Source of the DNA: an uncultured Lachnospiraceae bacterium
GTDB taxonomy: Bacteria > Bacillota > Clostridia > Lachnospirales > Lachnospiraceae
NCBI GenBank assembly: GCA_947588995.1
Contig: CANPZI010000006.1
Location: 62,001-126,000 of the forward strand
Length of the DNA: 64,000 bases
Reading direction: 5' to 3'
Positions within the stretch are counted from its first letter, which is position 1. Every line of letters starts with the position of its first letter. The position numbers and the translations under genes were made by a program. Below are positions 33,596 through 46,340 of the stretch, in pieces. The notes beneath the pieces were generated by a model, which was given only the letters and a program-made list of their open reading frames with translations, had not been told where the DNA came from and did no database searches.

Positions 33596-33622
33596 AGAGA
33601 AACCACATAGAAGTACGAAAGA

Positions 33623-33656
33623 GAAAGGACATGGCATACGCCGTGTCCTTTCTTGC
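33623..33656 (+). terminator. terminator hairpin between the TPR gene and spoIIAA
   Basis: GAAAGGACA (33623-33631) pairs perfectly with TGTCCTTTC (33644-33652). The T-run is interrupted (TTTCTTGCG), so some read-through into the spoIIA operon is possible. Confidence 0.7.
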
Positions 33657-33713
33657 GTGCAGAAGTCTGCCGGGAGGCGCGCAGAGACAGGTGGCAAAGG
33701 AGGTATGCACAGC

Positions 33714-34031
33714 GTGGAAGACTTTCAGGTGATAAATCACTATCTGATGATAAGACTGCCGGAGGAGATCGATCATCACGAATCGGTTGACATCAGTTCC
33801 AGAGCGGACCGCTATATTCTGTCCGGCAGCGTGGAGAACGTAGTTTTCGATTTTGAGCGGACGACCTTTATGGACAGTTCCGGAATCGGGATCATTCTGG
33901 GGAGATACAGGAAGGTTTCCTGTTTCGGCGGCAAGGTGTATGCCGTCAACGCGGACAGCCGGATCCGGCGGATTCTGTTGATGTCCGGTCTTGAAAATGT
34001 GGTGGAGATCATGGAGCCGCAGAAGAAGTGA
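33714..34031 (+). CDS. spoIIAA: anti-sigma F factor antagonist SpoIIAA
   Basis: STAS-domain protein of about 105 residues that releases sigma F when dephosphorylated. The phosphorylation site is in FMDSSGIGIILGRYR, with Ser near residue 55. The start is taken as GTG at 33714, because AAAGGAGG at 33697-33704 touches the ATG at 33705 directly and would leave no spacing. It is followed by spoIIAB and sigF, the classical order, but separated from spoIIAB by an unusual structured insert of about 150 bp. No sigma-H promoter was recognised in the short upstream region. Confidence 0.92.
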   Translation: MEDFQVINHYLMIRLPEEIDHHESVDISSRADRYILSGSVENVVFDFERTTFMDSSGIGIILGRYRKVSCFGGKVYAVNADSRIRRILLMSGLENVVEIMEPQKK

Positions 34032-34035
34032 GAAT

Positions 34036-34189
34036 GGAGGTTAGTGTGAAAAATCACACTGATGTGCTGATTCTTCACACGGGAGTTTGTGCCGGAGCGT
34101 CACAAACTCCCCTGATGGCAGACGCGAATTTGAGATTCGCGTCGCCCCGTCGCGAGAACGCTCCGGAAAGGAGGTAGTGTGAAAAATGA
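34036..34189 (+). other. structured insert between spoIIAA and spoIIAB
   Basis: The ribosome site and start region of spoIIAB (GGAGG, then TAGTGTGAAAAAT, 34170-34187) has an upstream copy at 34036-34054 differing by one extra T. Between them lie a 7-bp hairpin (34043-34060), a perfect 11-bp hairpin GGGAGTTTGTG/CACAAACTCCC (34081-34091, 34101-34111) and a perfect 9-bp hairpin (34121-34129, 34135-34143). The 9-nt loop CCGGAGCGT (34092-34100) is exactly complementary to ACGCTCCGG (34158-34166), which abuts the spoIIAB ribosome site. It looks like an inserted element with a duplicated flank, and may act as an RNA switch. Confidence 0.7.
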
Positions 34190-34674
34190 TCGAGATAGCG
34201 GAAAAGAGAGAGATCGGGGCGGTGACCAATGAGATCAGGGTGGAGCTCGCCGCGGTGTCCGACAATGAGGCCTTTGCGAGGATGGCTGTGGCGGCGTTTA
34301 TCGCGCCGCTCAATCCGACGTTAGAGGAGATGGCGGATGTCAAGACCGCCGTGTCCGAGGCGGTCACGAACGCCGTCATACACGGTTACGAGAACAGGGA
34401 GGACAAAGACGACAAGGTACTTATGGTATGCGCGCTTCGGGGCGACGTGCTGGAGGTGGAGATCTCGGATCAGGGCGTGGGCATCGAGGACGTGGAAGCC
34501 GCGATGACGCCCATGTACACGAGCAAGCCGGATCTGGAGCGTTCCGGGATGGGATTTTCCTTTATGGAGGCCTTTATGGACGACCTGGAGGTACATTCCG
34601 AGCCGGGCTGCGGGACGAGCGTGAAAATGTGCAAGAAGATCGGCACACGTCCGTGGATCGACAGCGAGGAATAG
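34186..34674 (+). CDS. spoIIAB: anti-sigma F factor SpoIIAB
   Basis: GHKL-type serine kinase and anti-sigma factor of 162 residues (about 145 in Bacillus). The N-box is KTAVSEAVTNAVIHGYE, G1 is ISDQGVGIED, G2 is RSGMGFSFMEAFMD. It binds sigma F and phosphorylates SpoIIAA. The ATG at 34186 has AAAGGAGG at 34167-34174, 11 nt upstream. It ends 3 bp before sigF. Translation may be affected by the structured element in front of it. Confidence 0.94.
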   Translation: MIEIAEKREIGAVTNEIRVELAAVSDNEAFARMAVAAFIAPLNPTLEEMADVKTAVSEAVTNAVIHGYENREDKDDKVLMVCALRGDVLEVEISDQGVGIEDVEAAMTPMYTSKPDLERSGMGFSFMEAFMDDLEVHSEPGCGTSVKMCKKIGTRPWIDSEE

Positions 34675-34677
34675 CCG

Positions 34678-35445
34678 ATGGAAGAGACTGCCGTATTGAT
34701 TGAACGTTCACAGGCAGGAGATAAAGAGGCAAGAGAGAGACTGATTGAGGAAAATTTAGGGCTGGTGCGTCATATCGTCAGGCGCTTTGCGGGGCGGGGA
34801 CATGACGCGGAAGATCTCTTTCAGATCGGCTGTATCGGCCTGATCAAGGCGATCGACAAATTTGATCTACAGTATGACGTGCGCTTCTCCACCTACGCGG
34901 TGCCGATGATCCAGGGAGAGATCAAGCGGTTCCTCCGGGACGACGGCATGGTCAAGGTGAGCCGCACGCTCAAGGAGGCGGGCGTTAAAGTCAAACAGGC
35001 GGCGGCGAGACTGCAGCAGGAGCGCGGGAGGGAGGCGACGCTTGCGGAACTGTCGGAGGCGACCGGCCTGCCGGTTGAGGAGATCGTGATGGCGTTAGAC
35101 GCCAATGTGGAAGTGGAATCGATCTACAGGTCCGTCTATCAGTCGGACGGCAGTGAGATTTATCTGGTGGATCAGGTGGTCAGTGAGAGCGGCGGATATG
35201 CCGGCGTGGGACAGACGGCATCGGGCGGAGGATGGGGAGACGCGGAGAAAGAGAAAGTGCTGAACCATATGCTGTTGGAGCAGCTTCTGGAGCGGCTGGA
35301 TGAGCGCGAGAGGACACTGATCCGGATGCGGTATTTTCAGGATAAGACACAGGTGGAAGTGGCGAGATGCATGGGCATCAGCCAGGTGCAGGTCAGCCGC
35401 ATGGAGAAGCGTATTTTGTTGCAACTGCGGGAGGAAGTGTGCTAA
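34678..35445 (+). CDS. sigF: forespore RNA polymerase sigma-F factor
   Basis: Sigma-70 family factor of 255 residues with regions 2 (LVRHIVRRFAGRGHDAEDLF, GLIKAIDKFDLQYDVRFSTYA), 3 (VSRTLKEAGVKVKQAAARLQ) and 4 (ERTLIRMRYFQDKTQVEVAR, MGISQVQVSRMEKRIL). Order and similarity identify sigma F, the first forespore-specific factor, so the organism is expected to sporulate. A short Gly-rich insert lies near residue 170-185. Its PilZ neighbour starts 57 bp downstream. Confidence 0.92.
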   Translation: MEETAVLIERSQAGDKEARERLIEENLGLVRHIVRRFAGRGHDAEDLFQIGCIGLIKAIDKFDLQYDVRFSTYAVPMIQGEIKRFLRDDGMVKVSRTLKEAGVKVKQAAARLQQERGREATLAELSEATGLPVEEIVMALDANVEVESIYRSVYQSDGSEIYLVDQVVSESGGYAGVGQTASGGGWGDAEKEKVLNHMLLEQLLERLDERERTLIRMRYFQDKTQVEVARCMGISQVQVSRMEKRILLQLREEVC

Positions 35446-46159: not shown

Positions 46160-46340
46160 ACAAAATAAAGAGATAGAGGTTGCGTGCTTCATCAGTAACG
46201 GCTCGTATGTGGCAGACACAGAGGAGGGGCCGTGAAAGGGGAGGACGCCGAAAGGAAGAGTAATCTGCGGACTCTTGCCTTGGGCGCACAGTTAAGAACT
46301 GTGTGACTGTCATCTAAGGATGGGGCGCTATCGGTTTATG
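46160..46340 (+). ncRNA. lysine riboswitch (L-box) upstream of dapA
   Basis: The leader has the ordered L-box features: AGATAGAGGTTGCG, ATCAGTAA, a GGGCC GTGAAAGGGGAGGACGCCG block with CCGAAAG, a CTTGGGCGC hairpin block, ACTGTCATC and closing GGCGCTATC. These match the lysine aptamer family from memory. Bound lysine should end transcription, lowering dapA and dapB expression. Boundaries are approximate. Confidence 0.88.

Follow-up and report, generated by a model that had tools for sequence, protein, structure and literature searches.

A dispersed RNA element with a pseudoknot beside its Shine-Dalgarno sequence separates spoIIAA from spoIIAB in a Lachnospiraceae genome

In the IncI-alpha plasmid ColIb-P9, repZ reportedly has an activator pseudoknot, described by Asano and Mizobuchi in 1998, in which a hairpin loop pairs with the bases just upstream of the Shine-Dalgarno sequence (SD) and serves as a translational switch. 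The ColIb-P9 repZ system belongs to plasmid replication control, involves an antisense RNA and a required leader peptide, and has an upstream reading frame. In I-complex plasmids, repA needs a repB leader. Among repeats, PATE and REP are names of those mobilised through IS200/IS605 or RAYT. The pneumococcal repeats BOX, RUP, and SPRITE are short, structured, and dispersed, are thought to be parasitic, and may affect co-transcribed genes; families of this kind are described as likely MITEs that are rich in AT, bear terminal inverted repeats, and have target duplications, and they also occur in pseudogenes and regulatory sequences (PMC3049150). The pnuC motif is named for one gene and has a pseudoknot that pairs the ribosome-binding site itself (PMC8632094). 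A full-text literature search, covering mostly papers other than subscription ones, returned no description recognisable as the element reported here.

Within the window, meaning the whole 64,000-nucleotide stretch analysed, a 154-nt gap separates the last position of spoIIAA (34031) from the first of spoIIAB (34186). The genes and the parts of this copy of the element are as follows.

33705..34031, + strand: spoIIAA (anti-anti-sigma F); TIGR02886 at 99.7 bits, below its 114.75 cut-off, and TIGR00377 above its cut-off
34036..34040, + strand: SD1, GGAGG; aligns by eye with the single SD of the empty sites L102, L103, L104, and L106
34044..34080, + strand: hairpin A, the variable 5' module (arms 34044-34056/34068-34080); found in 118/167 copies
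34046..34177, + strand: open leader frame with a GTG start, 43 codons, ending in TAG
34081-34091/34101-34111, + strand: P1 hairpin, with the 9-nt loop L1 at 34092-34100
34114-34116/34149-34151, + strand: P2, absent from minimal copies
34117-34129/34135-34146, + strand: P3, absent from minimal copies; arms 34121-34129/34135-34143 in the initial fold of the spacer
34152..34161, + strand: P4, a candidate local hairpin (GCG...CGC) that would compete with the pseudoknot
34158..34166, + strand: pseudoknot partner of L1, ACGCTCCGG, from complementarity and covariation
34170..34174, + strand: SD2, GGAGG, at the usual spacing upstream of spoIIAB
34175..34187, + strand: repeat of the element's first 13 nt, TAGTGTGAAAAAT (34042-34054 = 34175-34187), running into the ATG
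34186..34674, + strand: spoIIAB (anti-sigma F); TIGR01925 at 197.7 bits, above its 135 cut-off
34678..35445, + strand: sigF; TIGR02885 at 301.7 bits, below its 321.45 cut-off, and TIGR02980 above its cut-off

An earlier note on this DNA had pointed to strong hairpins and an exact 9-nt match between a loop and its partner in the spacer, and both are present beyond chance. The region 34020-34240 folds at -81.5 kcal/mol compared with -60.1 +/- 4.2 in 200 shuffles (z -5.12, 0/200 as low), and the P1 loop at 34092-34100 is the exact 9-nt complement of 34158-34166, a partner that three A's separate from the GGAGG core of SD2. SD1 is read as the native spoIIAB SD, which an insertion would have pushed upstream. 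A simple consensus scan found no promoter- or terminator-like sites in 33600-34300, and no Rfam 15 family reached its gathering threshold in the spacer, the best permissive match scoring 16.5 bits against 70. Elsewhere in the window, a lysine riboswitch aptamer (RF00168, 109.8 bits) occupies 46166-46338.

Searched at the DNA level, the window's own genome gave 49 matches at E <= 10, of which 25 at E < 1e-4. A covariance model, R1, was built on 20 own-genome copies; applied to the same genome it recovered these 20 at E < 1e-12 and gave 23 matches at E <= 0.01, and the DNA search that yielded 25 matches is independent of it. The sequence between spoIIAA and spoIIAB thus belongs to a family of dispersed RNA elements, each approximately 95 to 140 nt long. 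Within the genus, R1 matched 48 of 77 genomes at E <= 0.01, with at least 20 matches in 15 genomes. Across the family, with ten candidates scored in each genome, matches at E <= 1e-4 were found in 47 of the 397 genomes sampled, representing 42 of the 334 genera, and class-wide in 5 of 391 genomes, one of them outside the family. The carrier family is probably Lachnospiraceae, and records with the loop motif included, among the matches listed, many Lachnospiraceae, e.g., Acetatifactor, Eisenbergiella, Roseburia, Lachnospira, and Parablautia. Copies are present in Parablautia intestinalis D8-82, a culturable carrier, and likewise in Lachnospiraceae bacterium COE1. Loop-motif matches in Cycloclasticus (L216) and Pelagibacteraceae (L235) had no model match and were taken as chance. 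Plasmid and phage collections yielded no match to the element, and viral contigs gave two pattern matches (L324 and L325), with a model match in L325 alone. This 27-kb IMG/VR contig, classed as viral, bears one copy before an ORF and is a possible vehicle between hosts. Copies were pooled (n = 167) from the 20 of the window genome, 62 of 65 rows of one search, and 85 of 87 of another, leaving out three chance matches (L166:1360, L072 minus strand, and L075 plus strand) and two weak ones (L237:6362 and L238:6167).

The paired regions of these copies vary in a compensated manner. In 64 distinct rows, two-sided changes occurred in 29 of 35 pairs and 95.2% of cells paired, compared with at most 43.2% in slid controls, and 272 double-change cells were counted vs 67 in shuffles; the covariation counts from this alignment (A3), here and below, include three chance rows and related copies, and kinship makes the shuffle controls overstate significance. 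P1 showed two-sided changes in 10 of its 11 pairs (alignment A3). The pseudoknot helix, which lies outside R1, the model used for aligning, had 91.8% of cells paired against 24.8 to 46.9% when slid, two-sided changes in 6 of 9 pairs, and 29 double-change cells vs 6.0 in shuffles, all counted on A3 only, the reference row of alignment A4 having an altered partner. Compensations in this helix ran from GGAG/CUCC to GAAG/CUUC or UGAG/CUCA, and from GCG/CGC to GCA/UGC. Hence the pseudoknot adjoining the ribosome site, suggested earlier for this one spacer, is backed by covariation across other copies (64 distinct rows). Minimal copies (L268, L219, and L279) retain P1, the linker, the partner, and the SD only. 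In 62 copies there were 95 G-U cells compared with 22 A-C cells, and with P2 left out 53 compared with 21, as expected if the sense-strand RNA matters. The structure is well supported, and covariation shows that the loop-partner pseudoknot beside the SD is conserved.

P4 had a modest covariation excess, 8 double-change cells vs 1.6 when shuffled, on 3 pairs only, and a slide control came close to equalling it, the +2 slide scoring 0.158 vs 0.148. Pairing between CUCC and the SD could form in 90.6% of cells, but with no covariation excess over shuffles. A nested loop-partner fold is an alternative, with partner and SD base-paired to the loop and, in many copies, also to the 5' strand of P1. Its energy came within 7 kcal/mol of that of the P1 form in 18 of the 20 own-genome copies and fell below it in 4; it paired three of the four SD bases in 14 of the 20 and none in the window copy and four others. 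The arms of hairpin A comprise many different sequences yet remain complementary, although the finder allowed G-U, so its pair counts are biased. Additional pairings had also been proposed for the AGTGTGA preceding spoIIAB. The sequence is there, but the pairings are not conserved: AGTGTGA stands at the same place in 5 of 167 pooled copies and in the window falls within a repeat of the 13 nt with which the element begins, and the extra pairings are therefore not a family feature.

Copies are mostly found in sense orientation, a few bases upstream of a start codon, and carry an SD at their 3' end, the usual right end being TGGAG-ATTA-NN-ATG. A start codon 2 to 11 nt past the element, followed by at least 100 codons or a frame open to the read end, was found for 142 of 167 copies vs 110 of 830 random points placed on the same strand in the same loci. 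A looser ORF criterion, weak when taken alone, held for 157/167 copies vs 428/830 random points and 48/167 on the other side of the element. Failures numbered 10/167 under the loose criterion, two of them tandem arrays, and 25/167 under the strict one. Several copies in genomes G070 and G072 (L356, L371, L373, L385, and L387) lack a canonical start codon at the expected spacing, with ACG, ATA, or none in its place, and possibly mark dead genes or unusual starts. Short derivatives (L031, L033, L036, and L037) have only part of hairpin A, directly before an SD and ATG, as would result from an internal deletion. In head-to-tail arrays (L357, L358, L244, and L253) neighbouring elements share an SD, which ends the first copy and stands to the left of the copy that follows. 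An ATG inside the element's SD is often in frame with the downstream gene.

The genes that follow are diverse. The 20 strong copies of the window genome precede spoIIAB, clpB, pyrG, galT, ksgA, hslO, proA, cobM/cbiF, and others, with further downstream products including a sugar-nucleotide dehydrogenase, ABC transporter parts, a glycosyltransferase, a chemoreceptor, and a DUF3048 protein. A profile scan of 17 of the 20 downstream proteins, SpoIIAB included, revealed no common pathway, and two had no family. A metabolite riboswitch answering to one ligand would account for the compact conserved fold and the SD-adjacent pseudoknot, but it is very improbable given that no Rfam family matched, the annotated downstream genes have no pathway in common, and the P2/P3 domain is absent from some copies.

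The 5' side of the element carries a second set of translation signals. Of the 118 copies with hairpin A, 87 have GGAG, GAGG, or AGGA in the 14 nt to its left, vs 11/118 and 18/118 in the next two intervals; the left SD was lacking in the other 31 and, by eye, also in 5'-short copies, those at ksgA, proA, and pyrG among them. A start codon lay near the start of hairpin A in 110/118 copies, and the leader frame was open for at least 30 codons in 70/118 vs 6 and 13 in the other frames. All three counts favour a leader-peptide (uORF) attenuator, in which a short leader would be translated from SD1, its ribosome refolding the structure and coupling leader translation to that of the gene behind, but we consider this very improbable. 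In 26 copies, the commonest length class among leaders of at least 36 codons, unique variants fell at codon positions 52/47/48, 40 of 147 were synonymous vs 27.6% expected, and six were stop variants. The even codon positions and the expected synonymous share show no coding selection on the leader frame in these 26 copies. Furthermore, the frame is broken between subfamilies, 49 of 167 copies yielded no hairpin A, and at clpB and spoIIAB SD1 is explained as a displaced native SD. Leader translation as such could still be relevant.

Comparison with relatives gives a view of the sites without the element. For eight genes in four relatives, 27 of 29 junctions had no model match, the exceptions being clpB in G068, where the copy is decayed, and pyrG in G065. 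The clearest comparison is clpB, which in G065 is empty and reads AGGAGGCG-ATATC-ATG, and in the window genome is filled and reads AGGAGGCG-CG, the element, and GGAG-ATTATT-ATG. Here the element sits between the native SD, at its left (5') edge, and the start codon, and supplies a new SD on its right. For pyrG, the element was found in 2 of 30 genus loci fetched, those of the window genome and G065. P1 with its loop, and the partner with the SD, are identical in these orthologues; P3 has diverged yet still folds. In species without the element, another conserved hairpin, approximately AACTGC...GCGCAGTTA, lies upstream of pyrG just before the SD (L404, L411, L413, L416, and L417). At ksgA, and possibly at hslO and cbiF, the SD on the right seems to be the native one, and the copies at ksgA, proA, and pyrG are 5'-short with no left SD, which makes the ends of the element approximate.

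At spoIIA itself, the junction before spoIIAB in G065, G068, G069, and G073 is short, with a single SD and no element. The statement that spoIIAA and spoIIAB are normally almost contiguous holds for these four nearest relatives, where spacers are very short, but not throughout: in 11 of 30 loci, at least 97 nt separate the aligned SpoIIAA end from the SpoIIAB start, with no model match in that spacer. In another species group (L118, L120, L122, L127, and L129) the spacer contains a different long inverted repeat, which in L118 is GACATGAAGTTATACTAAGGC...GCCTAAGTATAACTAAGTCATGTC and perhaps represents another repeat family. When 50 genus spoIIA loci were searched with the model, the element was found between spoIIAA and spoIIAB in the window locus and, as a divergent copy, in L123 (G052). 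In L150 (G038) it lies upstream of spoIIAA.

The earlier note had assigned the element a role specific to this operon, setting the SpoIIAB to SpoIIAA ratio, and had looked to its retention in close relatives with normal sporulation. In its favour, the element does precede spoIIAB, G052 bears a related copy at the same junction, and an apparent remnant, seen by eye and without a model match, may persist in the spoIIA locus of G063 (L111). We nonetheless give this reading very little credence. The same element precedes approximately 20 different genes in this genome and occupies 2 of 50 genus spoIIA junctions, and a spoIIA-specific reading is thus unsupported. Nor was retention borne out at the level of DNA junctions, where the four nearest relatives lack a model match. 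A lineage-specific effect on SpoIIAB translation is possible; the element stands in place of the short junction seen in the nearest relatives and probably alters SpoIIAB initiation.

The manner of spread was considered from the distribution of copies and their flanks. Occurrence is dispersed and patchy, with tandem and nested copies that have an SD common to both at the junction, and an SD-like sequence often stands on both sides of a copy, conceivably a target-site duplication. Left and right flanks were more alike than permuted flanks (6.35 vs 5.99, 0/300 permutations, 106 copies), a likeness that includes, and is confounded by, subfamily effects. Shared junction SDs and flank resemblance fit insertion or recombination at SD sequences. 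Mean identity among compared copies was 0.92 to 0.93 within G070 and G072 and 0.92 between them, and identity within the window genome (0.83) was lower than that between it and G070/G072 (0.86). As copies are not clearly more alike within than between genomes, these identities do not point to a recent burst or recent activity.

The patchy dispersal, the tandem and nested copies, the flank likeness, and the decayed clpB copy in G068 would all suit a parasitic small repeat, MITE- or SINE-like, the structure of which serves its own mobility and the terminal SD of which merely lets the host survive insertion, with no regulation. We consider such a repeat possible but rather unlikely. No mobiliser was found among the Y1, reverse transcriptase, and IS110 families: Y1 transposases (IS200/IS605, RAYT type) were absent from the window genome at E <= 1e-5 and from 10 of 15 high-copy genomes, reverse transcriptases were absent from the window genome, rated 100% complete, at E <= 1e-8 and from 8/15, and IS110 was absent from 9/15. 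None of the three showed a significant rank correlation with copy number in the genus. Loss of a Y1 or reverse transcriptase mobiliser after spread is possible. No terminal inverted repeats were seen at the ends of copies inspected by eye. Moreover, the core of pseudoknot and SD outlasts the rest of the element in the smallest copies and in the pyrG pair, and the excess of G-U over A-C likewise argues against this reading.

We favour, with moderate confidence, a spreading, cis-acting translational module carried from gene to gene, which sets or conditions downstream expression. From the features described above we infer both the switching and the spreading. The element would act on the mRNA. 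With P1 formed, its loop would capture the partner CGCUCCGG and leave SD2 open. Were the pseudoknot not formed, SD2 could instead pair with the CUCC of the partner or, as many copies allow, with the U-rich 5' strand of P1, in either case lowering translation, and the whole would operate as a translational switch or set-point beside the SD. More tentatively, and with rather less than even confidence, we suggest a new class of mobile element: an RNA module homing to the junction of SD and start codon, where it would displace the native SD, bring in one of its own that the pseudoknot controls, and thereby rewire how dozens of unrelated genes across Lachnospiraceae are translated. If true, such a mobile translational switch would be to translation what a mobile promoter is to transcription. 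Repeats dispersed through bacterial genomes are commonly regarded as intergenic passengers, but here a repeat is found at the translation start with a ribosome site and a covarying pseudoknot. Should it control translation, a single unlisted RNA would affect the expression of genes for housekeeping, stress, transport, and sporulation in gut bacteria that are common, and would be a naturally occurring, portable part for translational control. Annotation is also at risk, since both the leader frame and an ATG within the SD can produce false small proteins and false N-terminal extensions.

Compared with the systems introduced at the outset, the element resembles the pnuC motif in that its pseudoknot involves the ribosome-binding region, but differs in preceding many genes and in that its loop pairs with bases adjoining the SD. 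Like BOX, RUP, and SPRITE, it is short, structured, and dispersed; unlike those repeats, it occurs mostly in one orientation before a start codon and ends in an SD. The likeness to the repZ activator pseudoknot is that the element's loop is predicted from complementarity and covariation to pair with bases beside the SD and that an upstream frame is present. Unlike ColIb-P9 repZ, it is a chromosomal repeat before unrelated genes, and its leader frame is without coding selection. The element appears, by analogy, to work most like the ColIb-P9 repZ pseudoknot and is distributed like the pneumococcal small repeats, with the defining features of either seen only in part.
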